Shown piece by piece: positions 13,376 to 30,300 of a stretch of DNA of 64,000 nucleotides. Positions within the stretch are counted from its first letter, which is position 1. Every line of letters begins with the position of its first letter. The notes beneath the pieces were generated by a model, which did not search any database, was not told the origin of the DNA, and saw only the letters and a program-made list of their open reading frames with translations. A program made the position numbers and the translations under genes. Origin of the DNA: a bacterium (lineage in GTDB: Bacteria > Elusimicrobiota > Elusimicrobia > Elusimicrobiales > UBA9959); assembly GCA_021789695.1 (NCBI GenBank), contig JAJYJH010000001.1:186001-250000 (forward strand), written 5' to 3'.

Positions 13376-14152
13376 ATGGACATAATGACCCTCGGTGGAT
13401 TCCTGCTCGGCGGCGCGGTGGTCGCCTGGGGCATTTTCTCTTCCGGCATCGGGGACAAACTGCTCAGTCCGCACGGTATAGTTATAGTTCTGGGCGGCAC
13501 GCTGGCGGCCACGGTCATCAACACCTCCTACAAGCGCTTCATGTCCGGCCTGCGGGCCTTCCTGGAGATCTTTTCCTCCGCCAAGATCCCCTCCGTGGAG
13601 GAGGCGGTGCGCGTGCTGACGGGCATGGCCGAGACCGCGCAGCGGCAGGGCGGCATAATGGCCATCTCGAACCCTGACCCGGCCTTCGCGGGCGGCTTCC
13701 TGAAGCGCGCTGTCGGCGTGGCTATGATAAGCGCGGAGTCCAGGGAGACCCGCAATATCCTTGAGGAGGAGATCCGCCTGCGCCGTCTCGACGTGCAGGA
13801 GGACTCAAACTTCTTCCGTACTGCTGGCGTGCTCTCGCCGATGTTCGGCCTGATCGGGACGCTATTCGGCATCATCCAGACGCTGAGCAATATCTCCGAC
13901 CCCACCACCATCGGCAAGTCCATGGCCGTGGCCATCAGCTCGGCCTTTTTCGGCATCGCGCTGTCCAACCTCCTGTTCGTCCCGGTGGCCAATAAGATCC
14001 GCCTGCGCGCCATGGAGGAGACGCTGGTGCTGCAGCTGATACTGGAGGGCGTGATAGACATCATGGGCGGCAAGACCCCCCACCTGATAGATATGCATCT
14101 GCGCGGCTACCTGCTGCGCGAGGCCGGCAGGTCCGGGCCGGCGAAGGCGTAA
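13376..14152 (+). CDS. motA: MotA-type stator subunit
   Basis: A 258-aa inner-membrane protein of the MotA/PomA family. It has two N-terminal helices (GGFLLGGAVVAWGIF; HGIVIVLGGTLAATVINT), a large cytoplasmic loop (about 55-155) and two C-terminal helices with the conserved GVLSPMFGLIGTLFGIIQ and ISSAFFGIALSNLLFVP. With MotB it forms a proton or sodium channel that turns ion flow into motion. GGAGAAAG precedes the ATG. It heads a plus-strand run with motB, a kinase and three response regulators. No flagellar filament, hook or export genes are present in the window. Confidence 0.93.
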   Translation: MDIMTLGGFLLGGAVVAWGIFSSGIGDKLLSPHGIVIVLGGTLAATVINTSYKRFMSGLRAFLEIFSSAKIPSVEEAVRVLTGMAETAQRQGGIMAISNPDPAFAGGFLKRAVGVAMISAESRETRNILEEEIRLRRLDVQEDSNFFRTAGVLSPMFGLIGTLFGIIQTLSNISDPTTIGKSMAVAISSAFFGIALSNLLFVPVANKIRLRAMEETLVLQLILEGVIDIMGGKTPHLIDMHLRGYLLREAGRSGPAKA

Positions 14153-14164
14153 GGGGTAAGGACA

Positions 14165-14791
14165 ATGCGTTTCTACGAACGCGAGGACGAACTGGAGAAC
14201 GAGCTCAACCGCGGCGCGTTGTGGGCCGTCACCTACGGCGACATGATGAGCTACCTGATGATCTTCTTCCTGATCCTGTTCGCGTTCTACAGCTCGAAGA
14301 AGATAGAGAACCAGTTTTCGATGAAGGGCATAGAGGAGACCTTCGGCAAGGACACGCAGATAGCCAGCACCCTGTTCGCCAAGAACGGCATACAGCAGAT
14401 AGCCAAGGTCGAAATCTCGGCGAACAAGATAACGATAAACTTCGCCAACCCGATACTTTTCGCTCCCGGCAGCGACGTGCTGAAGCCCTCCTCTTACCCG
14501 CACCTGCGCAGGCTTGCCGGAGTTTTTAAGGACCTGCCGAACCCTATCCAGGTGGAGGGCTATACCGACAACGTGCCGCTGGGGCGCGGCGCCAAGTTCA
14601 AGTCCAACTGGGAGCTCTCCTCGGCGCGCGCCTTTTCGGTGCTGCGCTTCTTCATAAAGGAAGGGGTGGCCCCGGAGAAGCTGTCCGCCGTGGGCTACGG
14701 GGCGTATAAGCCGATCGCTTCCAACGACACCCCAGAGGGGCGCGCCAAGAACAGGCGCATAGAGATAAACATCATCAGGCACGAGATCTGA
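14165..14791 (+). CDS. motB: MotB-type stator subunit with OmpA-like domain
   Basis: A 208-aa protein. A short cytoplasmic head is followed by one helix with the pattern WAVTYGDMMSYLMIFFLILFA. Asp26 occupies the position of the ion-carrying aspartate of MotB (Asp32 in E. coli). The plug/linker runs about 45-95, and the OmpA-type peptidoglycan-binding domain about 100-205 with EGYTDNVPLG, NWELSSARAFSVL and NRRIEINI. It anchors the stator to the cell wall. It lies 12 nt after motA. The intact Asp argues for a working ion channel. Confidence 0.93.
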   Translation: MRFYEREDELENELNRGALWAVTYGDMMSYLMIFFLILFAFYSSKKIENQFSMKGIEETFGKDTQIASTLFAKNGIQQIAKVEISANKITINFANPILFAPGSDVLKPSSYPHLRRLAGVFKDLPNPIQVEGYTDNVPLGRGAKFKSNWELSSARAFSVLRFFIKEGVAPEKLSAVGYGAYKPIASNDTPEGRAKNRRIEINIIRHEI

Positions 14792-14825: not shown

Positions 14826-16946
14826 ATGAAACTGACTACCCGCTTCCTGCTGATACTGCTGGGGCTGGCCGTCGTCCCGCTGCTGCTGGCCGTCGGCTGG
14901 AACGTCTATCAGTACAATTCCTCGGTCAACAGCTATTTCGCGCTGCACCGGGCGCTCTCCAGCCTCTCCGCCTCCAACGTGGAGGAATGGCTGCAGGACG
15001 TCAACCGCAACCTGGCCTTTCTGTACGAGTTCGAGAACCCGCTGCGAGGCAGAAAGGCGAACGTTTCGGAGATGATCCACCAGGCCGTGCGCATCAACTC
15101 CGAAATTATGTCGCTGGCGCTGATAGACAGCGACGGCAAAGAGGAGTTCTACCTGCAGAGCGAGAAGGTCAAGGACAAGAGTTCCCTGGCCGGCCTGCAG
15201 AAGGAGCTTGTCGCGAAGGCCGCGGATTCCGGGGTAGTCACCTCGGGCGAGCCGGTCTGCGTGCAGGGCCAGGTCTATTTCCCCCTTGCCTATCCGCTGG
15301 TGGACGGGCGCGTCGTGGTCTTCCATTTCTCCATGGACAGGCTGCTGGGAAAGATAAACTCGCAGAAGAGCGGCAGGACGGGCCGGGTCTTCATAACCGA
15401 TAAGAACGCGGTGCCGCTGCCCTGTCAGGATATGAAGGGGCTGGACTACAAGCCCTCGGACCTGCTGGACATCTTCCATCACGGCGGCCGTACCGGCACC
15501 TTCTCCGGACTCAGGATCTCCGGAGAGAATTACTCCGGGGCCTACGCCGCCGTGGAGAAACTGGACTGGGCCGCGGTCTCGGTGCAGTCGGAGAACGAGC
15601 TCTACGGCAAGCAACGCAAGTCCATCCTGGTCTTCGCCGTGATGTCCGTGATAATCTTCGTCATAGCGCTTTTCGTGGTTTTCCTGGTCTCCAACCGCAT
15701 CATCAAGCCGGTCAACAATATGGTCGGCGGCGTGAAGGGGTTCCTGAAGACGCAGCACCTGGAGAGTCCTATCCCCAAGGAAGGCTGGCCAGAAATCAAA
15801 TCTCTCGTCGGTATCCTGAATCGCCTGATGCTGGAGCTTCAGGCCTACCGCGCGTTCCAGCTGAACCAGATCGTGGAGGAGAAAGGCAAGGCGCAGGCGC
15901 TGATAGATACGATTTCGGACGGGGTGCTGCTGATAGACGACCGCGGCTCTCTGATCTACTGCAACGGTACCGCGCTGAAACTGCTTGGCATCCCGAAAAT
16001 CTCGCCAGAGATAGCCGTCCCCCGTTCGGTCAAGAACGAGGCGTTCTATAACGCCCTGACCGACCTGCTCGCCCAGAAGGAGAAGTACCTGAAGACCGAG
16101 GTGGAGGCCCCGCTCTCCAACGAGACCAGCACAGTCACCAAGAGCTTCCGCGTCATCTCCAACCAGTTCATGCTGGCCACGCTCAAGCGCCCTGGCCGCG
16201 TCATCATCATCCGCGACATCACGAGCGAGAAGGAGATCGAGAAGGCCAAGGAAGACTTCTTCCACATGATCACGCACGACATGCGCGCGCCGCTCTCCAC
16301 CCTGCAGGGTTACACCGAGCTGCTGGCCAAGAAGGTCGGCGGCAACCCGGCCATCGACAAGTACCTGCAGAGCATGCTGTATTCCTCGCGGCGCCTGCGC
16401 GGCATGATAGATGACATCCTGAACACGACCAAGCTCGAACGCGGCACGATGACGCTGCAGCTCGATGCCGTGGACGCCCTCGCGCTCATCACCCGCATCA
16501 AGGAGAACCACGAGCCGGTGGCCGGTCCGAAGAACATAAAGCTGCTGGTCGTCCCGCCGGCCGCCCCCATAAAGTTAATGGGCGACCCGATCCTGCTGGA
16601 GCGCGTCATCACCAACCTGATGGGGAACTCGCTTAAGTTCACTCCCGGCGGGGGTTCCATAACGCTCTCCACGTGGGAGGACCCGGGCAAGGTGTTCTTC
16701 TCCGTGCAGGACACCGGGCCCGGCATCCCGGAGAACAAACGCAAGGAGATCTTCGAAAAGTACTCTCAGATGGAGGAGCACAAGAGCCAGGGCTTCGGGC
16801 TGGGCCTGGCGATGTGCAAGATGACGGTGGAACTGCACAAAGGCGACATATGGGTGGAGTCCGAAGTGGGCAAGGGCAGCAAGTTCATCTTCACGGTCTC
16901 AAAGACTATGGCCGCCCCGCCACCGCCGGTCCCCTCTCCGTCTTGA
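14826..16946 (+). CDS. Membrane sensor histidine kinase (extracellular sensor, PAS, HisKA, HATPase)
   Basis: A 706-aa protein. A transmembrane helix (about 5-25) is followed by a large periplasmic region (about 26-265) of Cache-like size and a second helix (about 272-293). Then come a HAMP-like linker and a PAS-like part (ALIDTISDGVLLIDDRGSLIYCN). The HisKA box FFHMITHDMRAPLSTL holds His484. The ATPase domain shows the N-box (LERVITNLMGNSLKFTP), DTGPGIPE and GFGLGLAM. It follows motB by 34 nt, so stator and kinase are probably co-transcribed. It is expected to phosphorylate one or both receivers encoded next. The ligand is unknown. Confidence 0.92.
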   Translation: MKLTTRFLLILLGLAVVPLLLAVGWNVYQYNSSVNSYFALHRALSSLSASNVEEWLQDVNRNLAFLYEFENPLRGRKANVSEMIHQAVRINSEIMSLALIDSDGKEEFYLQSEKVKDKSSLAGLQKELVAKAADSGVVTSGEPVCVQGQVYFPLAYPLVDGRVVVFHFSMDRLLGKINSQKSGRTGRVFITDKNAVPLPCQDMKGLDYKPSDLLDIFHHGGRTGTFSGLRISGENYSGAYAAVEKLDWAAVSVQSENELYGKQRKSILVFAVMSVIIFVIALFVVFLVSNRIIKPVNNMVGGVKGFLKTQHLESPIPKEGWPEIKSLVGILNRLMLELQAYRAFQLNQIVEEKGKAQALIDTISDGVLLIDDRGSLIYCNGTALKLLGIPKISPEIAVPRSVKNEAFYNALTDLLAQKEKYLKTEVEAPLSNETSTVTKSFRVISNQFMLATLKRPGRVIIIRDITSEKEIEKAKEDFFHMITHDMRAPLSTLQGYTELLAKKVGGNPAIDKYLQSMLYSSRRLRGMIDDILNTTKLERGTMTLQLDAVDALALITRIKENHEPVAGPKNIKLLVVPPAAPIKLMGDPILLERVITNLMGNSLKFTPGGGSITLSTWEDPGKVFFSVQDTGPGIPENKRKEIFEKYSQMEEHKSQGFGLGLAMCKMTVELHKGDIWVESEVGKGSKFIFTVSKTMAAPPPPVPSPS

Positions 16947-16988: not shown

Positions 16989-17363
16989 ATGAACCTGATG
17001 CTGATAGTGGACGATAACGTCGAGTTCCGCAACATGGTCTCCGACTATTTCACGGACCTGGGATTCACCGTGGAAATAGCGGACAACGGCCGCGAGGGCC
17101 TGGCGAAGGCCCGCGCGATCCGCCCGGACATCATCCTGCTGGACGTGATGATGCCCGATATAGGCGGCATAGAGGTCATACGCCAGCTTCAGGCCGAGGA
17201 CGAGACCCGCTCTATTCCGGTCCTGGTCATAACCGGCACTTTTTTCGACAAGAACATGAGCGAACTTTTCAGGCAGGAGCCGAACTGCCGCGAGTTCATG
17301 AGCAAAACCGTCGAGCTCTCCTACCTGCAGAAGAAGGTGGAGTCCCTGTTCAAGAAAAAATGA
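16989..17363 (+). CDS. CheY-like single-domain response regulator
   Basis: A 124-aa stand-alone receiver. The acidic pair is Asp8-Asp9 (IVDDN), the phospho-acceptor is Asp52 in LLDVMMPD, the switch Thr lies in VITGT, and the conserved lysine is Lys106 (MSKT). All key residues are present, so it should be phosphorylatable. With no output domain it must act by binding a partner, as CheY does at the flagellar switch. Given the MotAB and FliG-like neighbours, a motor-control role is an attractive inference. Confidence 0.9.
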   Translation: MNLMLIVDDNVEFRNMVSDYFTDLGFTVEIADNGREGLAKARAIRPDIILLDVMMPDIGGIEVIRQLQAEDETRSIPVLVITGTFFDKNMSELFRQEPNCREFMSKTVELSYLQKKVESLFKKK

Positions 17364-17737
17364 GCTCCCGCCCACGCGTACTGGTGGTCGATGACGAACC
17401 GGACTATCTGCGCATCGCCGCGCGTATAGCAGCCGGGGCCGGCTGTTCCGTGGCGACCGCCGCTACGGCGCTGGAGGGCCTGGCAATGGCGGAGAAAACC
17501 CCTCCGGCGCTGATACTGCTGGACGTCGGGCTTCCGGACCTCAGCGGCTTCGAAGCGGCCCGCCGGCTGCGCCGCGTTCCCTCGCTGGCGCGCGTTCCTA
17601 TAATTTTTTTCACCGTGCGCTCGGAACTGGACATGGTCTCGGAAGGGTTAAGGCTGGGAGCCGCGGGGTACGTGCTCAAACCGTTCGACCCCGACGAACT
17701 CCTGCGCCGCATAAAGGCCGCCGTTCTCCCCTCATGA
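17360..17737 (+). CDS. Second CheY-like single-domain response regulator
   Basis: A 125-aa receiver whose ATG overlaps the previous stop (ATGA). Landmarks are VVDDE (Asp11-Asp12), LLDVGLPD (Asp55), FFTV for the switch position and LKPFD (Lys107). The active site is complete. It differs in sequence from its neighbour, so the pair are not a recent duplicate. Two output-less receivers behind one kinase suggest a branched signal or a phosphate sink. Confidence 0.9.
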   Translation: MSSRPRVLVVDDEPDYLRIAARIAAGAGCSVATAATALEGLAMAEKTPPALILLDVGLPDLSGFEAARRLRRVPSLARVPIIFFTVRSELDMVSEGLRLGAAGYVLKPFDPDELLRRIKAAVLPS

Positions 17738-18414
17738 GGCCTTCCGCCGTCTGCCTGACTCGCGACCCCGCAATGCGGGCATTTTTCAAGTCTTCGCTGC
17801 GGGGCTTTTCGCTGCGCTTTTGTCCCTCGGCCGCGGTCTTTCTCCGCTCCCGGCCCTCCGGGAAGCTCATCCTCATCGATTCTTCCCTGCCGGACATGTC
17901 CGGCGAGGACCTCGCGGCCGTGCTGCGCGGGGATGCGCGCACCGCCGGGCTGCTGCTGGTCGTAGCCGGCCCGGGGAATTATTCTCCCGCGGCCGCGGCG
18001 CGCTTACTGGACAGCGGCGCCGACGAGTATTTCCGTTTCCCACCCGACCCTGCCGTTTTTCGCGCCCGCCTGCTGAACCTCCTTTCGCGCGGCGCCGGGC
18101 GCGCCGCCGCTCCCGGGCAGCCAGCCGAACTTGCCTTCGGCCCGCTTCGCGTCTCTCCGGAAGCCCGCACGGTGACGGTGGCCGGCAGGCGGGCGGCGCT
18201 TACGGCGCTGGAATTCGATCTGCTGCTCTATTTTCTGAGCAACGGCGGCAGGGTGGTGTCCAGGTCTGTCCTGCTGGAGCGGGTCTGGAAACAGGGGCTG
18301 GATTCCGGCCCGCGCTCCGTGGACAAGCGCATAGAGGCGCTGCGCCGCAAGCTCGGCGCTTTCGGCGCCCGTATACGCACCGTCTTCGGGCTGGGCTATA
18401 TACTGAAGATGTGA
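17734..18414 (+). CDS. OmpR-type regulator with degenerate receiver
   Basis: A 226-aa protein overlapping the previous gene by ATGA. The N-terminal receiver keeps the acceptor Asp49 (LIDSSLPDMSGEDL). It has only one acidic pocket residue (TRDP), and the site of the conserved lysine reads YFRFPPD, with no lysine. The C-terminal winged helix (about 125-226) is a normal OmpR/PhoB DNA-binding domain: TALEFDLLLYFLSNGGRVVSR, VDKRIEALRRKLG, IRTVFGLGYIL. It probably binds DNA with atypical or no phosphorylation control. It ends 9 nt from the convergent coiled-coil ATPase gene. Confidence 0.85.
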   Translation: MRPSAVCLTRDPAMRAFFKSSLRGFSLRFCPSAAVFLRSRPSGKLILIDSSLPDMSGEDLAAVLRGDARTAGLLLVVAGPGNYSPAAAARLLDSGADEYFRFPPDPAVFRARLLNLLSRGAGRAAAPGQPAELAFGPLRVSPEARTVTVAGRRAALTALEFDLLLYFLSNGGRVVSRSVLLERVWKQGLDSGPRSVDKRIEALRRKLGAFGARIRTVFGLGYILKM

Positions 18415-18423
18415 GGCTCTCCG

Positions 18424-20409
18424 CTAGCCGCCGAGCGGCAGCGTGACGGTAACTACCGCTCCGCGCTGCGGCTTGTTTGCTACGTCCAGCCTGCCGCCGT
18501 GCTTCTCCGCTATCCGCGCGCAGACGGCCAGGCCTATGCCGGCTTTTCCCTTGTCGGCGGTATTGAACGGGGCGTACAACTTTTCCAGCGCCTCCGTGGG
18601 GAAGCCTGGACCGGTGTCGTCGAAAGAGATCAACGCCCAGCGCCCGTCCTCCGAGCCCTTCAGCGTGACGCGCAGGCTGCCGCCTTGCTGCAGACGCTCG
18701 TAGGCGTTCTTAATCAAGTCGTGAAAAAGCATCTTTATGCGCTCCGGGGAGAGACGCGCGCGCAGGCGCGGGTTAAGAACCGCGGCTGAGATGGCCAGCT
18801 TGCGCAGCTTGAAGGCGCGCTCCCACTTGGCCGTTTCCCCCGAGACGAACGGGGCCAGCTCGGTTTCCTCCAGGTCCGGCGTTTCTGGGTCCAGGTACTC
18901 CTGCCAGCCCTTCAGCAGGTTGACCGAGGCCAGCAGGTTCCTGAGAGCCGGTTCCAGCGCCTTACGCTCGGCGGCGGGTAGGCGCAGGCTGAAGGTCTTC
19001 ACGTCCTTGGCCGAGCGCTCCAGCGAGGCCAGCATGCGTGTGTTAAAATCGGTCTGTTCGCGTTTGAGCATGCCGCTGAACTTTATGTTCTTGCGGCGCA
19101 TGTCCTCGTTCTCTATCTCCAGTTCCGAGAGCCTCTTCCTGTCGGCGTCCAGCGCGGCCTTGTCCGCCCCTATCCTGAGGTCCCGTTCCTGCACCGCCTT
19201 CAGGGCGCGGGCGGTATAGTCCGAGGCCTCGGCGAGCTTCTTCTTCAGGTCGTCTATCTCCGCCTCCAGGGATTTTATCTTCAGGGCGGCCCGGCGCGAG
19301 ATTTCCTTTTCCTGCGCCAACTGGCCTTTTGAGTCCCGCAGCAGGCCATTGACCTTCTCCAGGTCCGCTTCCCTTGCCTTGAGGGCCGCCTCCAGCGCCG
19401 CGGCCCGCTCCTGGGCGGCCGACAGCTCCGTCCGGAGCGCCGCCGCCCGTTTCTGCAGGTCGAAGACCTGCGCCACGGCTCCGGAGAAGTTCGCGCGCTG
19501 CTCCTCGGCCCGCGCAGAATTTTCGGCCACGGCCTGGCGCAGCCTTTCCGCCTCCATCGCCGACTCGTCTAGTCTGGCCCGCAGTCCCGCCGATTCGGCA
19601 GCGGCTGCGCGCAGCGCGATCTCCTTATCGGCCAGGGCAGCCCTCAGCGCGTTGGCCTTGCCTTCCAGCTCGGCCTTCTCCGCCGCGGAGATTTTCCGTT
19701 CCTTAGCGGCTTCCTCGAGCCTGGCGTCGAGGCCCGATAGCTTCTCCGCCCTTTCGGCCAGGCCGGCGCGCGCCGCGGCGAGCTCCTTTTCGGAGGCGGC
19801 CAGGGCTTCGCCGGCGGCCTTTTCCCTGTCGGCGGCCTCGGCCAGCCGCGCGGCGGCCTGTTCAGCCGCCCGCCTGGCCTTCGCCTCGTTCCGTAGCAGC
19901 TCTTCGTAGGCTGAAACCCGCTCGCCAGAGATCTCCGAATCCTCTTTAAGCGTCCGCGCTATTTCCGGCAGGGTCATGATCCCCGCCAGCTTGTCCCTGA
20001 AAATCTCTATCGCCGCGTCCCTGGCCGCTACGGCTTCCGAAAGATCTGCGCTCCTGGCCCGGAGCTCCTGCAACTCCGCTTCCGCCAGCGAACGTTCCCC
20101 GTCCCTCTTCATCAGGCGGGACCTCAGTTCCGCGGCCTCGCGGGCCAGACGCGCCGCTTCCGCCAGCGCTTTGGAATTTTCTTCCGCGGCCTTCCGGAGC
20201 CCGGCCGTTTCGGTCTTGAGCCTGCGCTCCCTGGCCGCGCTTTCCTCCAGCTGGCGCTCCAGGCGCGCCGCCTTCGAGGCCGCCTCCCCCAGCTGCCTCC
20301 GGGCTTCCGCGCGCTCCCTCTCGGAACGGGCGGAGGCGTCCTGCGCGTCGCCCACCGCGCGCCAGAGGTAGTCCAGTTCGGAGCCGAACATGTCCGAAGG
20401 TCCGCTCAT
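18424..20409 (-). CDS. Long coiled-coil protein with C-terminal histidine-kinase-type ATPase domain
   Basis: A soluble 661-aa protein. Residues about 15-480 are nearly unbroken Ala/Glu/Arg/Leu-rich coiled coil. Residues about 555-661 are a GHKL ATPase: N-box FHDLIKNAYERL (562-573), DDTGPGF (597-603), GKAGIGLAV (620-628) and a final VTVTLPL strand. Between them (about 485-550) I find no H-E/D-x-R-x-P phospho-acceptor box. It may therefore be a kinase-like ATPase that signals in trans. Its start overlaps the stop of the FliF/FliG-like gene (ATGA), tying it to that protein. Coiled-coil scaffolds are known in myxobacterial gliding complexes (AglZ); similarity of role is inference. Confidence 0.75.
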   Translation of the reverse strand: MSGPSDMFGSELDYLWRAVGDAQDASARSERERAEARRQLGEAASKAARLERQLEESAARERRLKTETAGLRKAAEENSKALAEAARLAREAAELRSRLMKRDGERSLAEAELQELRARSADLSEAVAARDAAIEIFRDKLAGIMTLPEIARTLKEDSEISGERVSAYEELLRNEAKARRAAEQAAARLAEAADREKAAGEALAASEKELAAARAGLAERAEKLSGLDARLEEAAKERKISAAEKAELEGKANALRAALADKEIALRAAAAESAGLRARLDESAMEAERLRQAVAENSARAEEQRANFSGAVAQVFDLQKRAAALRTELSAAQERAAALEAALKAREADLEKVNGLLRDSKGQLAQEKEISRRAALKIKSLEAEIDDLKKKLAEASDYTARALKAVQERDLRIGADKAALDADRKRLSELEIENEDMRRKNIKFSGMLKREQTDFNTRMLASLERSAKDVKTFSLRLPAAERKALEPALRNLLASVNLLKGWQEYLDPETPDLEETELAPFVSGETAKWERAFKLRKLAISAAVLNPRLRARLSPERIKMLFHDLIKNAYERLQQGGSLRVTLKGSEDGRWALISFDDTGPGFPTEALEKLYAPFNTADKGKAGIGLAVCARIAEKHGGRLDVANKPQRGAVVTVTLPLGG

Positions 20410-21848
20410 GCGCCCCCCTTCAGGACCAGCCTGCCCTTGGCGTTCAGGTCTATGGCGGCGGTTATTATCTTCGCCCTCGCGGTAATGACCTTCTCTTCCT
20501 CGGGGCGCGCCGCCAGCATGTCTTTCACCACCAGCCGCACGTCCTCCGGCAGCAAGCGCGTGACGTTGGCGGCGGCGGTCTCCCCAGCGCCGTGCAGGGC
20601 GGCCGCCCAGTCGGCATAGGGCAGCGAAATCACCAGCGGGCGCAGATTCTTCTCGTCCAGCCTGCAGATGTCGTCGAAAGTCACCATCTTGCGCTTTAGC
20701 TCCTCGGAACCCTCGGGGTTGGCGCGCGAGAGGGTGTCCAGGATCTCGCTGCGCGAACTCTCGTCCACCAGCGAAAGGAGGCGGCCGAGCTTGTCCGCGC
20801 CTTTAAGGCTCTTCTCCATTTTCATGCGCAGGTCGTTCTCTATCTCGTATACCCGCTCGGGCTCGGCCTGCTTCAGGCCCAGCAGCTGCGCGGAGACGGC
20901 CTGCCGCTTGGCCGGGGAGAGCGACAGCAGTATCTTCGAAGAAACGTGAGGTTTCCTGTCGGCGAGGTTGGCGATGATTATCGCAGCGTCCTCTTCCGGG
21001 ATGTCGGAAATCAGTTCAGCTCCCTCTTCGGGCGGCAGCTTCTCCATGAACTCGAAAGCGGAGCCCGCGGTCAGCATGGCACCGCCGCGGGCGGCACCGG
21101 CCTCCACGTCGATTATTTCGCCCAGTTCGCCGGCTTCGCCTTCGCCGGGCCCCTCGATCGGCGCTCCGGGCAGGGCCCCGCCCGGGCCGGCGGCCGAGGG
21201 AGCGTTGAGGCGCGCGTAGTCCACGAAGCCGCTGAGCAGTTTGGACGCCAGTACGTAGCCGAGCACGAACAGCGCCGCCAGCGCCACCGCCCCGAAGGCC
21301 GCCGCCGCGAGAGTCGGGCGTATCTCCGGCGCCTGCAGCGCGCTCTTCCACCAGGGCAGCATGTCCGCTTTTTCCGTTATGATCGTGTCGCCGCGCTGTT
21401 CGTTGAGGCGCAGCACGTTGGCTATCATCAGCTTTATAGCGTTTACCTGGGTGTCCGGCACGGAACGGTCGAAGACCAGAGAGACGGCGAGCTTCTTGAC
21501 CCGGAACTCGGCGGTGTGCTGGCTCTGGGCCTGCTGCTGCTTGAGGTACTCGCCGGTCTTCTGCAGGATATTGACCGAGGAATAGCCGGGCAATGAGAGC
21601 GCGTCCTCGGGGGGCGGCCCGGACTGGCTGCTGCTCTGGTCCACCAGTTCTCCCTCCGCCGTGACGAAGGCCCGCGCGCGACCGCGGCCTAGCAGCTCCT
21701 GCAGGAGGCGTGAGACATCCTCCTGGAGGCGGGCGGAAATCTCGGCGGCCTGGGCGCTGGGAGAGACCGGCTGAGGCGCCTCCTGGGCGCGAGATTGGAC
21801 CGCGCCGCAGAGCAGCAGGACAGTAAGAAGACGCGAAAAAACTCTCAT
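20406..21848 (-). CDS. FliF-FliG fusion-like protein: minimal membrane ring plus rotor domain
   Basis: A 480-aa protein. A signal peptide (1-21) precedes a periplasmic part (about 35-165) that matches the last ring-building domain of FliF: LLQELLGRGRARAFVTAEGEL, HTAEFRVKKLAVSLVFD, then LRLNEQRGDTI and PWW. A transmembrane helix spans about 180-202. The cytoplasmic part (265-475) matches FliG: FMEKLPPEEGAELISDIPEEDAA, repeated helical hairpins, KMVTFDDICRLDEKNLRPL and IDLNAKGRLVL. The earlier FliF domains are missing. Of the charged torque residues of E. coli FliG only some are kept (Lys264 is His here by my alignment). Its neighbours are a kinase and a coiled-coil ATPase; MotAB is 6 kb away. 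Confidence 0.78.
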   Translation of the reverse strand: MRVFSRLLTVLLLCGAVQSRAQEAPQPVSPSAQAAEISARLQEDVSRLLQELLGRGRARAFVTAEGELVDQSSSQSGPPPEDALSLPGYSSVNILQKTGEYLKQQQAQSQHTAEFRVKKLAVSLVFDRSVPDTQVNAIKLMIANVLRLNEQRGDTIITEKADMLPWWKSALQAPEIRPTLAAAAFGAVALAALFVLGYVLASKLLSGFVDYARLNAPSAAGPGGALPGAPIEGPGEGEAGELGEIIDVEAGAARGGAMLTAGSAFEFMEKLPPEEGAELISDIPEEDAAIIIANLADRKPHVSSKILLSLSPAKRQAVSAQLLGLKQAEPERVYEIENDLRMKMEKSLKGADKLGRLLSLVDESSRSEILDTLSRANPEGSEELKRKMVTFDDICRLDEKNLRPLVISLPYADWAAALHGAGETAAANVTRLLPEDVRLVVKDMLAARPEEEKVITARAKIITAAIDLNAKGRLVLKGGA

Positions 21849-21879: not shown

Positions 21880-23226
21880 TTACAAAGTTATTACGCCGCC
21901 TCCCGGCGCCTCCGGCGCGCCGGGCAGCTCCAGCCAGAAGAGGGCCCCCCCTCCCGGAGCCGGGCCGCCGCCGGCTTTCCCGCGGTGCAGTTCCGCTATG
22001 GCCTTCACCAGGGCGAGCCCCAGCCCGGTCCCGCCGTGGCCCGGGGCCGCGCTTCCCTGCGTGAACGGCCTGAACAGGTTCGCGGCCTCCCCCGCCTTGA
22101 GCCCGGGGCCGGTGTCCTCCACCTCCGCCCTGAACGCTCCTTCCGCCAGCGACGCCCTGAGCGTAACCTTCCCGCCCGCAGGGGTGAACTTTATCGCGTT
22201 GGAGAGCAGGTTGGTAAGGGCGTGTGTCAGCAATTCCCTGTCGAGCAGCGCCTGGCCGCCGCCTGCAGTTTCCACCGAAAGCTGCACGCCCTTTTCCTCC
22301 GCCTTCGGGCGTATGAAGTCGGCGGCGTCCCGGGCCAGAGAGAGCGGGTCCTCCCTGGCCGGCCGCAATTCCATCTTCCCTCGCTCTATCCTGGCCAGGT
22401 CCAGCATCGCGGTGACGAAGTTCGCCAGGCGGCCAGCGTTCTCCTTTATGCGCCGGAAGACCTCCAGGTCCTCCGGACCGAACCGCCCAGGCTCCCGGAG
22501 GAGCATGGCGGCGTAGGTCTCTATGACCCCGAGCGGCGAGCGTAGCTCGTGCGTGACGGAGGCGGTGAAACTTTTCTTCATCGTCTCCAGCTCCAGCAGG
22601 CGGGCTGACATAGAATTGAGCGCGGCCGCCAGTTCGGCCACCTCGTCCGCCCCTCCGACGTCGGCCGTCACCCCGAAGCGTCCTTCCCCCACCGCCGCGG
22701 CCTCCGCGGCCAGTCGCTTGAGCCTGCGCGTCAGCCAGCGCGCCAGTAGCACGCCCAGCAGCGCCGCCGCCGCCATGGCTCCCAGGAAGGCCGCGGCCAG
22801 GTCGCTATAGACCCCGGCCAGGTCGCTTTTGCGCTCCTCTTCCAGAGCGGCCGATGAGAAGTCCAGCCGCGCCGTATAGCGCCCGCCCTTTATATCGCGG
22901 ATGATAAACTTTTCGCCGGGCCTCGGCGGGGGCTTTCCGCGGAGCTTGAGGGGCAGAAGGCCGCGCCCGATGTCCAGCTCGCAGGCGGCCAGTTCGGGAC
23001 GGGAGGAGCACAGGCCGGAGAGATAATCCACCGCCAGCAGCGGATCGCGTTCCAGTTCCGCCTCACCCAGCATGGACGCCACTGATTGCTGCATGCCGCG
23101 CAGCCGCGCCTGTTGTGCCGCCCGCAGGGTGCGGTCGTGGAACCCGAAGAAGATCCAGGAAAGCAGCAAGGCCGCCGTCAGGGCGGCGGCCATCAGGGCC
23201 GCGCTGAGTTTGTGAAAAAGCCTCAT
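21880..23226 (-). CDS. Membrane sensor histidine kinase with HAMP domain
   Basis: A 448-aa kinase. Helix 1 (about 8-29), a small periplasmic sensor (about 30-140), helix 2 (about 143-163), HAMP (about 165-215) and the HisKA box SFTASVTHELRSPLGVI with His226 come in order. The ATPase domain has LTHALTNLLSNAIKFTP, DTGPGL and GGTGLGLALV. It lies between the PorV-like gene (20 nt) and the FliF/FliG-like gene (31 nt) on one strand, so all are probably in one transcript. GGAGG precedes the ATG. No response regulator is in this operon; candidates are the receivers at 16989-18414. Confidence 0.92.
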   Translation of the reverse strand: MRLFHKLSAALMAAALTAALLLSWIFFGFHDRTLRAAQQARLRGMQQSVASMLGEAELERDPLLAVDYLSGLCSSRPELAACELDIGRGLLPLKLRGKPPPRPGEKFIIRDIKGGRYTARLDFSSAALEEERKSDLAGVYSDLAAAFLGAMAAAALLGVLLARWLTRRLKRLAAEAAAVGEGRFGVTADVGGADEVAELAAALNSMSARLLELETMKKSFTASVTHELRSPLGVIETYAAMLLREPGRFGPEDLEVFRRIKENAGRLANFVTAMLDLARIERGKMELRPAREDPLSLARDAADFIRPKAEEKGVQLSVETAGGGQALLDRELLTHALTNLLSNAIKFTPAGGKVTLRASLAEGAFRAEVEDTGPGLKAGEAANLFRPFTQGSAAPGHGGTGLGLALVKAIAELHRGKAGGGPAPGGGALFWLELPGAPEAPGGGVITL

Positions 23227-23246: not shown

Positions 23247-25205
23247 TTAGCGCGAGAGCCTGATTATCCTCTCCAGCGCCTTCTTGGCCTGGCTGTTCTG
23301 GGGGTCCAACGTCAGTATCTTGCGGAAGGAATCGGCGGCTTTGCCGTAATCCCCCTTGGCGTAGTAGTCGGCCCCGTCCTGGTAGAGTTTCTCGATTTCG
23401 CGGACATGCGCCGCCGGCGATCCGGCCGGCGCCTGCTGCTGCGCCTGCTGCACTACGGCGGCGGGTTCCCAGCCGGATTCTTTGCCTCGCTTCAGGTCGG
23501 CCTGCTCGATCATCTTCATCAGCTTGCCCTTGGAGACCGGGTCCGCCTCTATCGCCGCGGCCTTACGCCAGTAGGCCGCGGCCCCGGCGTAATCCCCGAG
23601 CATGTAGTCGCAGGAACCGCTCTTTTTGAGCGCCATCAGGTCGTTGGGGGTCAGGGACAGCAGGTCCTGCAGCTTGAGCAGCGCCTCGGTGTAGTTCTTC
23701 TTGGAGTAGTAGTCGTCCGACTGGGAGAGTTTGTACTCCGGCCAGCTGCGGCCGAAGTCGGCCGGGACCCTGTCGGGAACGATGTGGGTGATCTCGCCGA
23801 CCCTGTCCAGGAAGGCGGACAGGGCGGAATCCTGCGGGTCCAGACTCTGCGCGTAGGCCAGCTGTTTCATCGCCAGCGTGTCGGAGCCGTTCAGGAAGTT
23901 CTGCGCTCCGGCGGAGAGCAACTGCTCCTTGAGCGTTTTCTCCCTGCCCTTCACCGCCAGCGACGGGTAGAAGGCCGAGACGGCGGAGAGGCGGCGCGTA
24001 AGACCGACCACCGAGGAATCGGGCAGCAGGTCTGGCGCCTTGGCTGCGAGCAGCTTGCCGGCCGCGTAAAAATCCTCCTGCTCCACTTTTTCCTTCACGT
24101 CGGCCAGGCGCGGGTCGTCCAGGCTGGCGGTCGCGCTCGGGCTCTTGTAATCCTCGGCCTTGCGCAGCTGGTCGTACTGCGCCAGCAGTTCGTTCTCCGC
24201 TATCTCAGAGCGGGTCGGGCTGCCGAAATGATAGGTCAGCGCCAGCCTGTGGATGCCGGCGGTCTGCTTTATGGTGCCTATGGGCATGACGAAGGCGTAG
24301 TCGAATTGGATGCGCTGTATCTTGTACGAGAGCCCGAGCGTGGCTTGCCTGAAGTCGCGCGTCCCGGCTCCCAGCGAGCCGCGTACGCCGATATCGCCCC
24401 TGTCCAGGCTGGGGAAGACCTTCTCCGCGGCCAGCACCAGCTGCTTGTCCATACTCCCGTCTGGCGCCTTCTCCATCCTGGCGTCCGCGGCCAATATCAG
24501 CCAGAGGCTCTTGAAGGAAGCCCCGACTCGGTATTTGCGCGGCACCTGGTCCTTGTCGCCGCTGCCGAAGGCCACGTTGGGCTGCAGGGCGTCCAGTATA
24601 GCGGCCCCCAGCGTCCAGCGCCGGGTCATGCGGTAGAGCACGCCCAGGTCAGCGTCCGGCGCGCTCGTGGAGTTCTGGCCGGCCAGCACCGGGTCGGTCT
24701 GCCCGGTCTGCGAGAGGTTATCCATTACCGCGTTGTAGGCCTCGGGGGGCCTGTCGAAGCCGTGGGACAGGTACTTGAGCGAGCCGCCGACAGATAACTT
24801 CTCGTAGGGGGTGCCTTTGGCGAACCTGTACCCCCAGGAGAGCTGCATCGTGCGCTCGTAGTAAAGGCCGGAGAGCGAAAAATCCTGCCAGGACGCGCCG
24901 AGAGTCCCTTCGCGCCCGTCCGCCAGCGGCACGGCCAGCGCGGCCACGCTCAGGCCCAGGCTGGAGCCGTCGCTGAGGCCGGAATAGAGAATGGAATGGG
25001 AGGCCATCACTTTCGGCCGCTCGACGTTGGCGAGGCCGGCCGGATTGTAGTAGATGGAGGAGATGTCGTCGGCCACTCCGGTGAAGGCGTCGCCCATGCC
25101 GGGAGCCCTGGCGCCGAAGCCCATGTCCTCGAAAGCCGCGCGCGCCGGGGCCGCCGCGCAAGCGGCCACGAGCAGGGCTAAGCGGGCTTTCTTCTTCAGG
25201 GTCAT
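23247..25205 (-). CDS. PorV/UPF0164-like outer-membrane barrel with C-terminal TPR domain
   Basis: A 652-aa protein. A signal peptide (about 1-23) precedes the barrel start AFEDMGFGARAPGMGDAFTGVADDISSIYYNPAGLANV, typical of PorV/PorQ and UPF0164 outer-membrane proteins. Amphipathic strands continue to about 335. Residues about 345-650 are helical with TPR-like units (DDYYSKKNYTEALLKLQDLL, YYAKGDYGKAADSFRKILTL). PorV shuttles CTD proteins in type IX secretion. Here a CTD protein gene sits directly upstream and others are divergent, so a related export or anchoring role is plausible. The TPR fusion is not part of classical PorV. Confidence 0.78.
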   Translation of the reverse strand: MTLKKKARLALLVAACAAAPARAAFEDMGFGARAPGMGDAFTGVADDISSIYYNPAGLANVERPKVMASHSILYSGLSDGSSLGLSVAALAVPLADGREGTLGASWQDFSLSGLYYERTMQLSWGYRFAKGTPYEKLSVGGSLKYLSHGFDRPPEAYNAVMDNLSQTGQTDPVLAGQNSTSAPDADLGVLYRMTRRWTLGAAILDALQPNVAFGSGDKDQVPRKYRVGASFKSLWLILAADARMEKAPDGSMDKQLVLAAEKVFPSLDRGDIGVRGSLGAGTRDFRQATLGLSYKIQRIQFDYAFVMPIGTIKQTAGIHRLALTYHFGSPTRSEIAENELLAQYDQLRKAEDYKSPSATASLDDPRLADVKEKVEQEDFYAAGKLLAAKAPDLLPDSSVVGLTRRLSAVSAFYPSLAVKGREKTLKEQLLSAGAQNFLNGSDTLAMKQLAYAQSLDPQDSALSAFLDRVGEITHIVPDRVPADFGRSWPEYKLSQSDDYYSKKNYTEALLKLQDLLSLTPNDLMALKKSGSCDYMLGDYAGAAAYWRKAAAIEADPVSKGKLMKMIEQADLKRGKESGWEPAAVVQQAQQQAPAGSPAAHVREIEKLYQDGADYYAKGDYGKAADSFRKILTLDPQNSQAKKALERIIRLSR

Positions 25206-25212
25206 GTCCGTC

Positions 25213-25611
25213 TTACCTTATTACTACCAGGGTCCCCTTGTAGACCTTGGTGCCGACCGTTACCTGGTAGATATAAACTCCGCCGGCCGTTTTCTTGCCG
25301 GAATTGGGGTCCCATTTCATGTCGTAGTATAAGCCGGCGACGTTGTCGGCCCTGGTCGGGTCGCCGTCGTCGCGCTGCGCCAGGGTCATTAAGGCTACCT
25401 GGTGCCCCGAAAGGTCATAGACGGTCCCCTCCACGTCCAGGTCCTGCGGGTTGTAGCAGCGGAAGATGAAATAGTCGTTCATCCCGTCGCCATTGGGCGT
25501 CACCATGCGGTTCATCGGGCCGGAAAGCCCCAGCCCCGAAGCCAGGCATACGAGCGCCCCGGGCGCGGCCAGAACCGCGGTCAGGAGGAGAAAAGACCGC
25601 CAGACTTTCAT
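25213..25611 (-). CDS. Small exported protein consisting mainly of a type IX sorting/FlgD-Ig-like C-terminal domain
   Basis: About 132 aa: a signal peptide (about 1-26) and then one domain, MNRMVTPNGDGMNDYFIFRC through GGVYIYQVTVGTKVYKGTLVVIR. The TPNGDGxND start and GGVYIYQ...G ending are hallmarks of gliding-motility/CTD sorting domains, and the same domain ends the protein at 25730-27346. I start at ATG 25611; an in-frame TTG lies 7 codons upstream. There is no Shine-Dalgarno, but TAAAAT lies exactly 7 nt upstream. Eight bases separate it from the PorV-like gene, so it heads that operon. Confidence 0.72.
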   Translation of the reverse strand: MKVWRSFLLLTAVLAAPGALVCLASGLGLSGPMNRMVTPNGDGMNDYFIFRCYNPQDLDVEGTVYDLSGHQVALMTLAQRDDGDPTRADNVAGLYYDMKWDPNSGKKTAGGVYIYQVTVGTKVYKGTLVVIR

Positions 25612-25618
25612 ATTGAGA

Positions 25619-25624
25619 ATTTTA
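25619..25624 (-). promoter_or_regulatory. -10-like TAAAAT 7 nt before the CTD protein start
   Basis: On the minus strand TAAAAT is followed by 7 nt and then ATG 25611. With transcription starting 7-8 nt after a -10 box, the mRNA would begin at or next to the start codon (leaderless). It is divergent from the TATAAT at 25717. Confidence 0.45.
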
Positions 25625-25716
25625 CTTTTCAATTGTGACCGTTTTGTTGCGGATTTATGGATTTCACGTCAGTCCTTTCGACATTTCTCTGTAATATTTT
25701 GGTCGCACGCAGCGGG

Positions 25717-25722
25717 TATAAT
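25717..25722 (+). promoter_or_regulatory. -10 box TATAAT 7 nt before the FN3/CTD protein start
   Basis: A perfect TATAAT is followed by 7 nt and then GTG 25730, the only start that keeps the signal peptide. No ribosome site fits in the gap. The -35 region is not consensus. A leaderless transcript is the simplest reading. Confidence 0.5.
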
Positions 25723-25729
25723 AATATTC

Positions 25730-27346
25730 GTGAACCGCACGCGCCTCTTGGGCTCGTTCCTGCTGCTGTCCGCCTTGCTGGCGGCGGGGAACGCCCGTGC
25801 CTCCCGCCTCTCCTCAGCCGATTTCATCGACGTGAGCGGCGCCTACGGCTACGGCTCCGGCTACATGATTTCTCCCACTTTCGAGCAGGCTGCCAATCTG
25901 CAGGACCTGGCCGTTTCCACGCGGGAGTCGGCGAACTACCTCTGGCGCAGCGGCAACCTGGCCTTCTACCCGGTCCCGGCCCCGGTCTTCGACCTGGCGC
26001 CAGTCATAGTCTCCAGTTATTCCGTGCGTCTCACCTGGACCGCCCCCTCTTCCGACGCCACGCGCGCCGCCCAGGCCCCGCAGTACTACATCCTGCGCTA
26101 CAGCACCTCCGGGTACATCAGTAACGAAAGCGATTTCAGCGCGGCCTCCCCCTACGCGCAGGACTGGACCCCGCTGACCCCCGGCTCGGTGGAGACACAT
26201 ATAGTGGACGGGTTCAACGCGGGTACTACCTACTATTTCTCGATGGAGGTCCTCAACGGCGACTATCTTTACTCCGAGATCTCCAACCCCGCCGCGGCGC
26301 TGGCGCTGGTGCCGCTGCCGCCGCTGAACCTCCAGCTGACGCGCTACGGCAATTCGGCCACGCTGACCTGGCATCCCCCCGCCGGGTTCGAGAACCGGAT
26401 CTCATTCAACAATCCCGCCAGCCCCCTGTACCCTTACGAGGTGAAGGGTTATGAGGTGTTCCGCGCCACCTCCCCCGGCAACACCGAATGGACGCAGATC
26501 GGCGAGACCTCCACCGACACGCTCACCTGGACCAACATCATCCCGACCTCCGACCCGTACTACTACTACGTGCGCGCGGTGAACATGGCCGGAGAGTCCC
26601 TGCCGTCCTATGAGCGCTCGAGCCAGAACGGCGGCCTGTACTTCCAGGCGCCGGACGACCTCAGTATCTTCGAGGTGCCGGAGTCCGGGACGGGCCCCTT
26701 CTTCTCGTCCTCCCCAGACCCGATGGCCGTCTACACGCTGGAGATCTCTACGCACGCCGAGGACCTCAGCAGCAGGGTGGTGAAGTCTGTCGAGTTCTCC
26801 GCCTATAAAGGCGGCCTGGTGGCGGACCCTCTCTTCCAGCTCCCTGCCAAGGGAACGCTGAAGCTCTATTACGCCAAGTCCGGCGGCGCGATAGTCCCCT
26901 CCGCGCAGAACGACGCCAGGACGCTCAGCATGTACTATTTCAACGGCTCGCGCTGGTTGCAGATGTACGGCGACGTCGACGAGGCGGACCAGAGCGTGCA
27001 GCTGCAGACCAGACTGCTGGGGCGCTACCAGTTGCGCACCACCGAGCGCGCCGGCGGCTTCTCCGCCGACCGGTCCGGTCTGCTGAACAGGATGATAACT
27101 CCAAACGGGGACGGCAAAAATGATACGATGGTATTCATCTTCGACAACCCGCAGAACAGCGAAGTGAAAGGCAAGATCTACGACCTGCGGGGGGCTCTCG
27201 TGGCCACGATGCAGCCCGGGCCGGTCCAGAACTCGCTCGTGTGGGACGCCAAGTCGAACGGGCAGGTGGTGCCCGGCGGGGTCTATATCTATCAGTTGCA
27301 GTGCGGTTCTAACGTCTATAACGGGACGGTGGTGGTGGTCAGGTAG
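25730..27346 (+). CDS. Surface protein with fibronectin type III-like domains and type IX-like C-terminal domain
   Basis: A 538-aa protein. GTG 25730 begins a signal peptide NRTRLLGSFLLLSALLAAG. Two FN3-like domains follow: about 85-190 (SYSVRLTWTAPSSDATRA, YYILRYSTSG) and about 195-300 (NLQLTRYGNSATLTWHPPAG, YYYYVRAVNMAGES). A beta-rich region leads to a C-terminal CTD (about 455-538) with NRMITPNGDGKNDTMVF and GGVYIYQLQCGSNVYNGTVVV. This CTD is clearly related to the small protein encoded divergently. FN3 plus CTD is the layout of secreted adhesins or enzymes delivered by type IX-like systems. Confidence 0.75.
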   Translation: MNRTRLLGSFLLLSALLAAGNARASRLSSADFIDVSGAYGYGSGYMISPTFEQAANLQDLAVSTRESANYLWRSGNLAFYPVPAPVFDLAPVIVSSYSVRLTWTAPSSDATRAAQAPQYYILRYSTSGYISNESDFSAASPYAQDWTPLTPGSVETHIVDGFNAGTTYYFSMEVLNGDYLYSEISNPAAALALVPLPPLNLQLTRYGNSATLTWHPPAGFENRISFNNPASPLYPYEVKGYEVFRATSPGNTEWTQIGETSTDTLTWTNIIPTSDPYYYYVRAVNMAGESLPSYERSSQNGGLYFQAPDDLSIFEVPESGTGPFFSSSPDPMAVYTLEISTHAEDLSSRVVKSVEFSAYKGGLVADPLFQLPAKGTLKLYYAKSGGAIVPSAQNDARTLSMYYFNGSRWLQMYGDVDEADQSVQLQTRLLGRYQLRTTERAGGFSADRSGLLNRMITPNGDGKNDTMVFIFDNPQNSEVKGKIYDLRGALVATMQPGPVQNSLVWDAKSNGQVVPGGVYIYQLQCGSNVYNGTVVVVR

Positions 27347-27362: not shown

Positions 27363-30300
27363 ATGGATTCTCGCTACAGCGCAAGGACTTTCTATGGCAG
27401 GTTCGCGGCGGCCGCGTGCGCCCTGCTGCTCTGCGCGGCCGCGCCGGCCCTGGCGCAGATGACTCCCACCATAGACTACCAGGGCTACCTGATAAGCAAG
27501 GTCACCAACCTGCCGGTCAGCGCCAACCAGAGCATCAAATTCGTCATTTACGACAGCCAGACCGGCATCTCCAATCCTCTTTTTAGCGAGACCCGCTGCA
27601 CCGTTCCCGTCTCAAAGGGCCGCTACGAGGTGGAGATAGGCTCCAGCATACCCGGCGGCATCCCGGCCTCCATCTTCATGAACCACCCCAACCTCTGGCT
27701 GGAAGTGCAGGTGGACGGCACCGGTACCTGTTCGGGAAGTTTCGAGGCCATGTCGCCCCGCATAAAGCTGCAGGCCTCCCCGTACGCCTTCAGCGCCGTC
27801 TATGCCGCCACTTCGTCGGTGGCCACCCCGCTCTTCCTGGCCGACACCATAGGTCCGCTGCCCCAGACCGCCAACGGCGCCATAACAATCTCCACCAACC
27901 TTTTCGTACAAGGGGGCATTTCGGTCGGCGCCATCTCACCGGGCCAGACCCTCTCGGTGGCCGGCGTAGTGGAGAGCTCCACCGGCGGCTTCAAGTTCCC
28001 GGACGGCTCCGTGCAGACCCGAGCCGCAGCTTTCACCATGTGGGACATCGCCGGCCCCAACATCTTCACTATCAACCCCGGGAACGTTGCCATCGGGGAC
28101 CTCTCGCCCGGCGCGCACAACACCGTCCCGCGCGCCAGGCTAGACATCTCCTCCGCCCCCGGCGACACGGGCGACCTGCTGATGGTCTCCACCGGCACTT
28201 CCCAGCTCTTCCTGGTGAACGGCCTCGGTCAGGTCCGCGGCGGCTCGTTTTACGGCGACGGTTCCACGCTGGACGGGGTGGTCCGCAAGGCCAGCGACAC
28301 CATGACGGGGCAGTTGACCATAGCCGGCTCTTCGCTGACGGTGACCTCGCCGGACGGAGTTTATTCCCCCGGACTCTTGCTGTCGCCGGGGGTCCGCATC
28401 TCTTCCGGGGCGCCGGTACAGTATGGCGGCGCCGTCCTCTTCAGCTCCAACGTCTACGCCGCCGGCAAGTTCTACGGCGACGGTAGCGGTTTGGTGAACC
28501 TAGTCTCTTCGGATACCTCCAAGGTTCTCAAATCCGGGGACACGATGACCGGGCAGCTGACCCTCTACGGCTCTACATTGACGGTGACCGGCGGTGCCTT
28601 CTCCGTGGGAGGCTCCACCCTTTCGGTCTACGACGGCAACACCGCGGTTGGCGGCACTTCGTACTTGGCCCGCCTTACCGTCAGCGGCGGCATCGTCGCC
28701 ACCTCCAGCATTACGGCGCAGAGTTCCATTTATGCCCAGAACTTTAACGCTCCTTACGGCAACGGGACCTTCTATAACGTCACCGCGGCCACGGCCACCT
28801 TCTGGGGGGCCGACGTGGGGACGGGCTTCTCCGTGGACACTGCCAGCGGCATCAGGGTCAACAGCGGCGTCGTCAGCGCGCCACTGTTCATCGGCGACGG
28901 GTCCGAGCTTGCGGGGGTAATGAAGAGCACCGATACCACCAAGGTCAGCAAGTACGGCGACACGATGACCGGGAACCTGTGGATCCTCGGCTCAAGCCTC
29001 ACCGTGACCGATTACGGCTTGGATAAATACGCCATGACCGTGGGCACGGCGACGCAGTACAACCTGGTGGTGACCACCACCGGCTTTGTCGGTGTGCAGA
29101 CTCCAAGTCCGTCCGCCCCCCTCGAAGTAGCCGGGCGTCTGCTTGTTTCCAATCCATCGACCATAAGCGGCGCGGCGCACCTTGACCTTAGTTCATACGG
29201 CGGCTACTCGTACCTGAGCTGGAGCGATCCGTCGCTGGTGAGCAGCGGCGGGTCTCCGCAGGGCGTCCTCGGCTTTCCGCCGGCGGTCAGGGACCTGATC
29301 TACAGGACGATGGGTACCGACCCTTATAACGGCGGCAGCGAGGTCTTCACGATAACCTCCGACAACAGCGCCAACTGGAAGTTCGGCATAGGCTCCAACC
29401 ACAACGCCTCTCCCAAGGTGCTGCCGTGGGAAAAGTTTCAGGTCTTCACCAACCTGCTGGTCAGCACCGCGGCCACGAACCCGGTGCTATTCGCGAGCAC
29501 CGGCACGGACATGGTCTCCATCGCCACCACCACGCAGCTGGCCGCGCTCACCGTGGGAGGCGGCATAAACGCCGTGTCCTCCATAACCGCCCAGGGCGGC
29601 TTCTTCGGCAGCGGGGCCGGCCTGACCAACCTTACGGCTTCCTCCCTGCCCGGAGATATTTATATTAGCACCATCGGCGCCAAGACCGGAAGCGCGTACA
29701 ACGCCGTGGTCTTCAGCAGCGCGGTCTATGCGCCCTCGGGCATGGCCGTCGGCGGGATCTTTACCCCTGCCGCGGACCTGCACGTGAGCAACGTGCTGCG
29801 GGTGGACAACATTTCAAAGGCCGGCGGGCCTGACGTGCAGTTGCAGCTCTCCCCGAATGTCGCCGGTTCCGCCTATATAGTCTGGAACGAGGGCGCTACG
29901 CCCACCAAGGGCGTTCTGGGGATGTATGCCGGCGAGAGAGACCTGGTATACCGCGCCGCGGCCACTAATCTTTTGAACGGCGTCCAGGTCTTCAGGATAA
30001 AAGGCGACGGCAGCTTCCTGATAGGCTCCGGCAACACCAGTTTTCCTATGGCGGCGCCTTTCCAGGTGGCCACCGACATGGCGGTTGCCGCGCAGTCGCA
30101 GACCCCGGCCCTGTTCGTCTCCACCGGCACCGGCTACGTCGGAATAAGCACCGGCGTCCCGCAGGCCCCGCTGGACGTAAACGGCCTGGCGGTGCTGCGC
30201 TCTTCGGCCGTGGTGAACGGCGCCGGCCTCACCGGCTCGCAGACAGCTTTCTCGGTGATCGGCTCCACGCTGGTAGTCCTCAACAACGGCACGGTCGGCA

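Follow-up and report, generated by a model that had tools for sequence, protein, structure and literature searches.

FliG is usually regarded as flagellum-specific. In the Chlamydiaceae, bacteria not thought to be flagellated, FliF and FliG occur as a natural fusion of about 330 aa. It lacks the SpoIIIAG-like domain (ring-building motif 3, RBM3) as well as some of the SctJ-like region, and of FliG it has only the middle (M) domain; the flagellar genes of chlamydiae are given as FliF, FliL and FlhA (PMC4768692). FliF-FliG fusions engineered in Salmonella and Vibrio are compatible with function or ring formation, but these join complete proteins within a complete flagellum (PMC4768692, PMC11481574). 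Rotor proteins without filaments occur in 11% of non-motile species, in a role that was left open (PMC12199754). Here we describe a FliF-FliG fusion encoded in a 64,000-nucleotide stretch of an Elusimicrobiota genome (the window; GenBank assembly GCA_021789695.1, contig JAJYJH010000001.1, positions 186,001 to 250,000). The chlamydial fusion is the closest described protein. In contrast to it, the window protein keeps RBM3 alone of the FliF ring domains, has both the M and the C-terminal (C) domains of FliG, and has a cognate MotAB stator. We found no account of an Elusimicrobiota FliF-FliG/MotAB module in the openly licensed literature, and the main text of a survey of MotAB stators has no mention of Elusimicrobia (PMC12505986). 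Our results indicate that the fusion probably serves as rotor subunit in an ion-driven rotary motor that is not flagellar.

The rotor gene (20406-21848, minus strand, as are the parts given next) encodes 480 aa, with the FliF part preceding the FliG part both in Pfam and in a profile of orthologs compared with Protein Data Bank (PDB) sequences. The protein consists of a signal peptide (residues 1-22; 21783-21848), an RBM3-like FliF periplasmic ring domain (residues 30-160; 21369-21761), a transmembrane (TM) helix that corresponds to TM2 of FliF (about residues 178-210; 21219-21317), the FliG M domain (residues 266-347; 20808-21053) and the stator-contacting FliG C domain (residues 372-476; 20421-20735). 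Pfam matched FliG_C (PF01706) at residues 372-476 with E=1e-14, above the cut-off. FliG_M (PF14841; residues 295-347, E=5e-5) and YscJ_FliF_C (residues 97-156, E=7e-4) each scored slightly under the gathering score. The TIGR00207 FliG model matched with E=1e-13. The same families were found in orthologs: FliG_C in all 17 tested, FliG_M in 16 and YscJ_FliF_C in 15 (best 9e-9). The ortholog profile matched Thermotoga FliG (1lkv) with E=2e-33, covering the FliG middle domain, and the FliF entries 9yh6 (E=0.003) and 6scn (E=0.004).

Predicted structure pointed to the same two families. The AlphaFold2 (AF2) model, a monomer as in all our AF2 predictions of this protein, had a mean predicted local distance difference test score of 73. 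It contained an alpha-beta-beta-alpha-beta RBM at residues 30-160 and, within 176-215, a long TM helix; a disordered linker at 215-261 led to the FliG-type helices. When this model was used in Foldseek, the top matches were FliG (4e-9) and the FliF MS/S-ring (2e-4), and every match at E<=0.001 was a FliG or FliF entry. Matches of the C domain included 1qc7 and the MotAB-bound FliG 8ucs. Aligned to RBM3 and TM2 of E. coli FliF, the protein has in common an RGD motif, a PG loop motif and PFW/PWW before TM2. An LPG motif of the RBM3-like domain lies in the loop where the collar sits in FliF.

Several parts of the flagellar proteins are missing. RBM1 and RBM2 were not detected (no PF01514, YscJ_FliF, match in the protein or elsewhere in its genome), and the sequence has no room for them. 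The N-terminal FliF TM anchor is absent; in its place is the signal peptide, MRVFSRLLTVLLLCGAVQSRAQ, which was recognized by eye and is conserved in kind among orthologs. The FliG N domain is also missing, with just a weak Pfam match (E=0.21) that overlaps the M domain. An earlier note, made from the letters of the window, had proposed this architecture: a signal peptide, the last FliF periplasmic domain without the first two or the N-terminal anchor, one TM helix and a FliG-like cytoplasmic part. The profile, structure and alignment results bear it out.

We also considered whether the protein might be neither FliF nor FliG, but instead combine a ring domain like that of SpoIIIAG with a helical repeat resembling MgtE_N. 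The RBM3 fold is common to SpoIIIAG, and there were weak MgtE_N matches. However, FliG_C matched with E=1e-14 compared to 1e-4 for MgtE_N, TIGR00207 FliG matched with E=1e-13, Foldseek gave 2e-4 for FliF and 0.18 for SpoIIIAG, and the sequence motifs match FliF. This identity is therefore extremely improbable, and both the MgtE and the SpoIIIAG readings were dropped on score.

The FliF-FliG fusion is accompanied by a stator. The window MotA/MotB pair lies 6-8 kb from the rotor gene. MotA (13376-14152, plus strand, 258 aa) is PomA/MotA-like by profile, PDB and tree evidence: it is closer to MotA/PomA than to TolQ/ExbB (NCBIfam, 147 bits compared to 25 for TolQ, below the equivalog cut-offs), and it matched MotA/PomA among PDB sequences. 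MotB (14165-14791, plus strand, 208 aa) has a plug and an OmpA-like domain, identified by profiles and alignment, and keeps the proton aspartate, Asp32. This residue is retained in nearly all aligned copies, Asn or Gly taking its place in a few, and the MotA channel prolines Pro173 and Pro222 are present in every aligned MotA.

The source genome (2.45 Mb, 95.7% complete) encodes three FliG_C proteins: the window protein, a 657-aa protein with extra TPRs on contig C41, and a 504-aa protein on contig C28. The N-terminal halves of all three align with FliF RBM3; Pfam YscJ_FliF_C matches just 2/15 members of the C41-type family and 5/11 of the C28-type family. The clear Foldseek matches of the C41-type model were FliG, plus one composite FliF model. 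A plasmid search with the C41-type protein gave no match over most of its length; among the ten matches listed, only the FliG region was aligned. There are four MotA_ExbB proteins in the genome. Three of these are MotA, and each is next to one fusion, within 8 kb. Random placement would pair three MotA genes with three rotor genes at P of about 2e-6.

Rotor and stator genes also occur together across the group. A search with an alignment of seven orthologs yielded 26 loci in named genomes, and the taxon-labelled ones are Elusimicrobia, Elusimicrobiota or Elusimicrobiales metagenome-assembled genomes (MAGs). Among 117 genomes of the class, 69 had both a fusion and MotB_plug, 43 had neither and 5 were discordant (P=7e-26); that is, both were present in 69 of the 74 genomes that had either. 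MotA or MotB was within 10 kb at 44 of 59 inspected rotor loci, and a PorV-like barrel was within 10 kb at 51 of the 59. Most of the rotor-free genomes listed belong to one family of 1.3-1.8 Mb genomes, which we infer, without proof, to be host-associated.

The window fusion is not a one-off form: Elusimicrobiota have at least five clades of paralogous rotors, and the fusion falls in one of them. In trees of the FliG domain, clades W (that of the window), A, C and D were strongly supported and B partly so. Flagellar FliGs, two of them from Elusimicrobiota that are flagellated, grouped together next to clade D with weak support (83/35). The MotA tree largely mirrored the rotor tree, as co-inherited rotor-stator pairs would give: W, A and D were clean, B included a single additional sequence, and C had displaced rows. 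Type D is a fifth, divergent rotor with its own MotA/MotB (L129, L156, L161), and its FliG domain is next to flagellar FliG. In module C, two close FliF-FliG copies flank a MotA gene (L148:5714, L148:9050), a recent duplication. Module B has two successive MotB genes (L005:11240-12570, L127, L131, L132, L150, L155, L157, L160), one of which, at some loci, carries Asn where the proton-carrying Asp would be.

We found that the source genome lacks detectable genes for several other parts of a flagellum. FlhA (PF00771), FliM/FliN (PF01052), the N-terminal YscJ_FliF domain and flagellin (PF00669) were each not found in it, by searches in which flagellated controls were positive. FlhA was found in 3 of 248 genomes sampled from the phylum; FliG_C was found in 92 of the same 248. 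FliM/FliN was found in 2 of the 117 class genomes, and the YscJ_FliF domain in the same 2. Since genes for an export apparatus, a C-ring or a filament were not detected in its genome, the window fusion is not a flagellar protein. An earlier paper likewise notes absent flagellar genes in Elusimicrobia (PMC7031533).

Flagellar genes are present in three genomes of related lineages within the phylum (G032, G215, G246), as might be expected if the fusion were a decaying remnant of a lost flagellum. We consider decay highly improbable. Genomes carry several paralogs each, all intact and distributed over five clades, and their operons are conserved. In same-genus pairs of the rotor gene, differences are 2-4 fold more frequent at codon position 3 than at positions 1 and 2; this bias, together with the gene order kept in relatives, indicates that the open reading frame (ORF) is more than chance. 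The genuine flagellar FliGs of Elusimicrobiota cluster, with weak support, with other flagellar FliGs and not with the main fusion clades. Moreover, G215, from the same family as the source genome, has both kinds of protein: FlhA and a separate 320-aa FliG beside a FliF-like ORF, plus fusion module A with MotAB (L086, L143, L144).

The contacts between rotor and stator are altered. In E. coli, MotA R90 contacts FliG D288/D289, and MotA E98 contacts FliG R281 (PMC12505986). The earlier note had the torque-contact residues only partly kept, with His in place of Lys264, and our alignment agrees: K264 corresponds to H419, R281 to D436, D288 to D443 and D289 to M444, so that D288 alone of the four is retained. 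An Arg, R438, is two residues past D436 and could stand in for R281. In the window MotA, E98 is replaced by Ser. By inspection, an Arg is at the ungapped R90 position; automatic alignment places Gln there. In module A, FliG R281 is replaced by Gly, while the Glu is often retained in MotA. Co-variation of rotor and stator at the charge contacts is thus suggestive only. From these residues, the MotAB ion channel looks functional and the rotor interface looks modified.

Altered charge contacts, and the several signaling genes that flank the rotor gene, would also fit a FliF-FliG ring that rotates nothing. It would instead be a static dock or gate that recruits and unplugs MotAB for ion entry or load sensing and signals to the co-encoded kinases. 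This seems rather improbable, as FliG_C, MotA and the peptidoglycan domain of MotB have been maintained and have co-diversified in matched clades, as for force transmission. In addition, a gate has no obvious need of an MS-ring domain. A rotating machine fits these observations better, and we consider a non-flagellar rotor-stator machine of some kind very likely. Such a machine would share with the flagellar rotor and stator (FliF, FliG and MotA/MotB or PomA/PomB) RBM3, TM2, FliG M and C, and the channel Pro and Asp of MotA/MotB. It differs from them in having no RBM1/RBM2, FliG N domain, FliM/FliN, export gate or filament, in having the ring protein and FliG as one chain, and in the changed R281/E98 contact.

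The remaining genes of the locus encode signaling and outer-membrane or surface-type proteins. On the plus strand, the stator operon includes a dCache-PAS-HisKA-HATPase sensor kinase (14826-16946), assigned by its domains and conserved gene order. Two single-domain response regulators follow (16989-17363 and 17360-17737; sequence and conserved position), and then an OmpR-type response regulator with a DNA-binding domain (17734-18414; domain match and conserved position). On the minus strand, a coiled-coil protein with an HATPase_c domain (18424-20409; Pfam and gene order) has a start that overlaps the stop of the rotor gene (ATGA). Directly upstream of the rotor gene is a HAMP-HisKA-HATPase membrane histidine kinase (21880-23226, minus strand; Pfam and gene order). 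Beyond it, profile matches identified a 652-aa PorV/PorP-like outer-membrane barrel with C-terminal TPRs (23247-25205, minus strand) and a small, 139-aa protein with a CHU_C domain, which is type-B-like of the type IX secretion system (T9SS) (25213-25632, minus strand). A surface-type protein with fn3 and CHU_C follows (25493-27346, plus strand; profile matches and gene order). The listed start of this last ORF is mechanical, and translation probably begins close to 25637, as judged by the length of close orthologs, about 570 aa. Genomes of the same family repeat the locus, with MotA, MotB, sensor kinase, response regulators, coiled-coil HATPase, FliF-FliG, histidine kinase, PorV-TPR barrel and CHU_C. 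In a second family the same W-locus genes recur, partly rearranged. A 1073-aa protein without a confident Pfam match is at 27363-30584, and some relatives (L071, L072) have it conserved next to the module.

The barrel and CHU_C proteins resemble components of type IX secretion. The window barrel matched PorV_fam with E=2e-16, below the cut-off, and also matched PorP_SprF-type models and TPRs; the barrel at the C41 locus scores above the PorV_fam cut-off. CHU_C was found in two proteins of the window locus and in seven matches across the genome. A SprA-like protein of about 1800 aa (L145:5012-10432, contig C63 of the source genome) adjoins an LptF/LptG gene. It has partial TIGR04189 matches (E=2e-22, below the cut-off) and no Pfam match. 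This protein and its matches in other genomes of the class suggest a divergent T9SS-like route across Elusimicrobiota.

The fusion and MotAB could energize such a route and not motility, replacing GldLM and exporting CHU_C proteins through the SprA-like translocon. We consider this unlikely, though less so than a static gate. The CHU_C proteins and PorV/PorP-like barrels do share the rotor locus, the SprA-like protein is in the genome, and the GldM model TIGR03517 had zero matches in 60 genomes, although that search lacked a positive control and so does not establish absence. However, SprA-like matches, all below the family cut-off, are found in 112 of the 117 class genomes, including many that are rotor-free. 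The rotor is thus not an obligate or core part of that route.

Based on these results we favor a rotary motor, and suggest how it might work. Many copies of the fusion would likely assemble by their RBM3 domains into an inner-membrane ring whose FliG C domains lie in the cytoplasm. The RBM3-like domain of SpoIIIAG is able to make large rings. Peptidoglycan-anchored MotA5MotB2 units would likely use ion flow to drive the ring, by rotation or stepping, much as flagellar stators do. The fusion of the FliF and FliG parts would make dispensable the FliF tail and the FliG N domain, by which the two proteins are otherwise joined, and the two-component proteins on both flanks (kinases and CheY-like regulators) would replace CheY-FliM control. 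Less certainly, and with neither rod nor hook present, the ring might act from its periplasmic face on the PorV-like TPR barrel and the CHU_C surface proteins, with surface, gliding-type motion as the outcome at the outer membrane. The gene neighborhood suggests such an output, as does analogy with GldLM, the motor of T9SS and Bacteroidota gliding. GldLM likewise sits in the inner membrane, runs on ions and is linked to PorV-type outer-membrane proteins and to adhesins secreted to the surface; it has no FliG or FliF rotor, whereas the window stator is of the MotA/PomA type with a peptidoglycan-binding MotB (PMC8986121). The identity of the motor is well supported. Its output we infer, and gliding-type motility is a tentative proposal, with somewhat less than an even chance of being right.

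Several points weigh against this explanation. The whole case is computational and comes from MAGs of uncultured organisms. Incompleteness could hide flagellar genes in one such genome, but hardly across some 90. At 15 of the 59 rotor loci there was no MotA/B in the flanks inspected. With FliG R281 and MotA E98 both altered, it cannot be taken for granted that torque is coupled as in the flagellum. Assembly of a ring from RBM3 only is a prediction, and contact between the ring and outer-membrane proteins, which is less certain still, is suggested by gene neighborhood. PorV-like proteins may be common in the phylum, so that the association of rotor and barrel may be partly coincidental.

Together, our findings are consistent with a flagellum-type rotary motor that apparently has been put to other use in a mostly flagellum-free lineage, and that probably acts at the cell surface. 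The chances are about even that it represents a rotary machine of a new class that spans the envelope, with RBM3-only FliF-FliG rotors and private MotAB stators in at least five parallel types, coupled to PorV/CHU_C proteins and serving surface motility or the movement of surface proteins. Most of the rotors do not group with flagellar FliG, and the machine may even preserve a pre-flagellar rotor-stator stage; the FliG and MotA trees are unrooted and do not decide between a pre-flagellar and a derived origin. Matches to FliG, MotA and MotB are, by themselves, no proof of flagellar motility. The window locus provides a testable case in which a reduced rotor has been kept with its own stator, in multiple families of a lineage mostly without flagella, and together with outer-membrane components.

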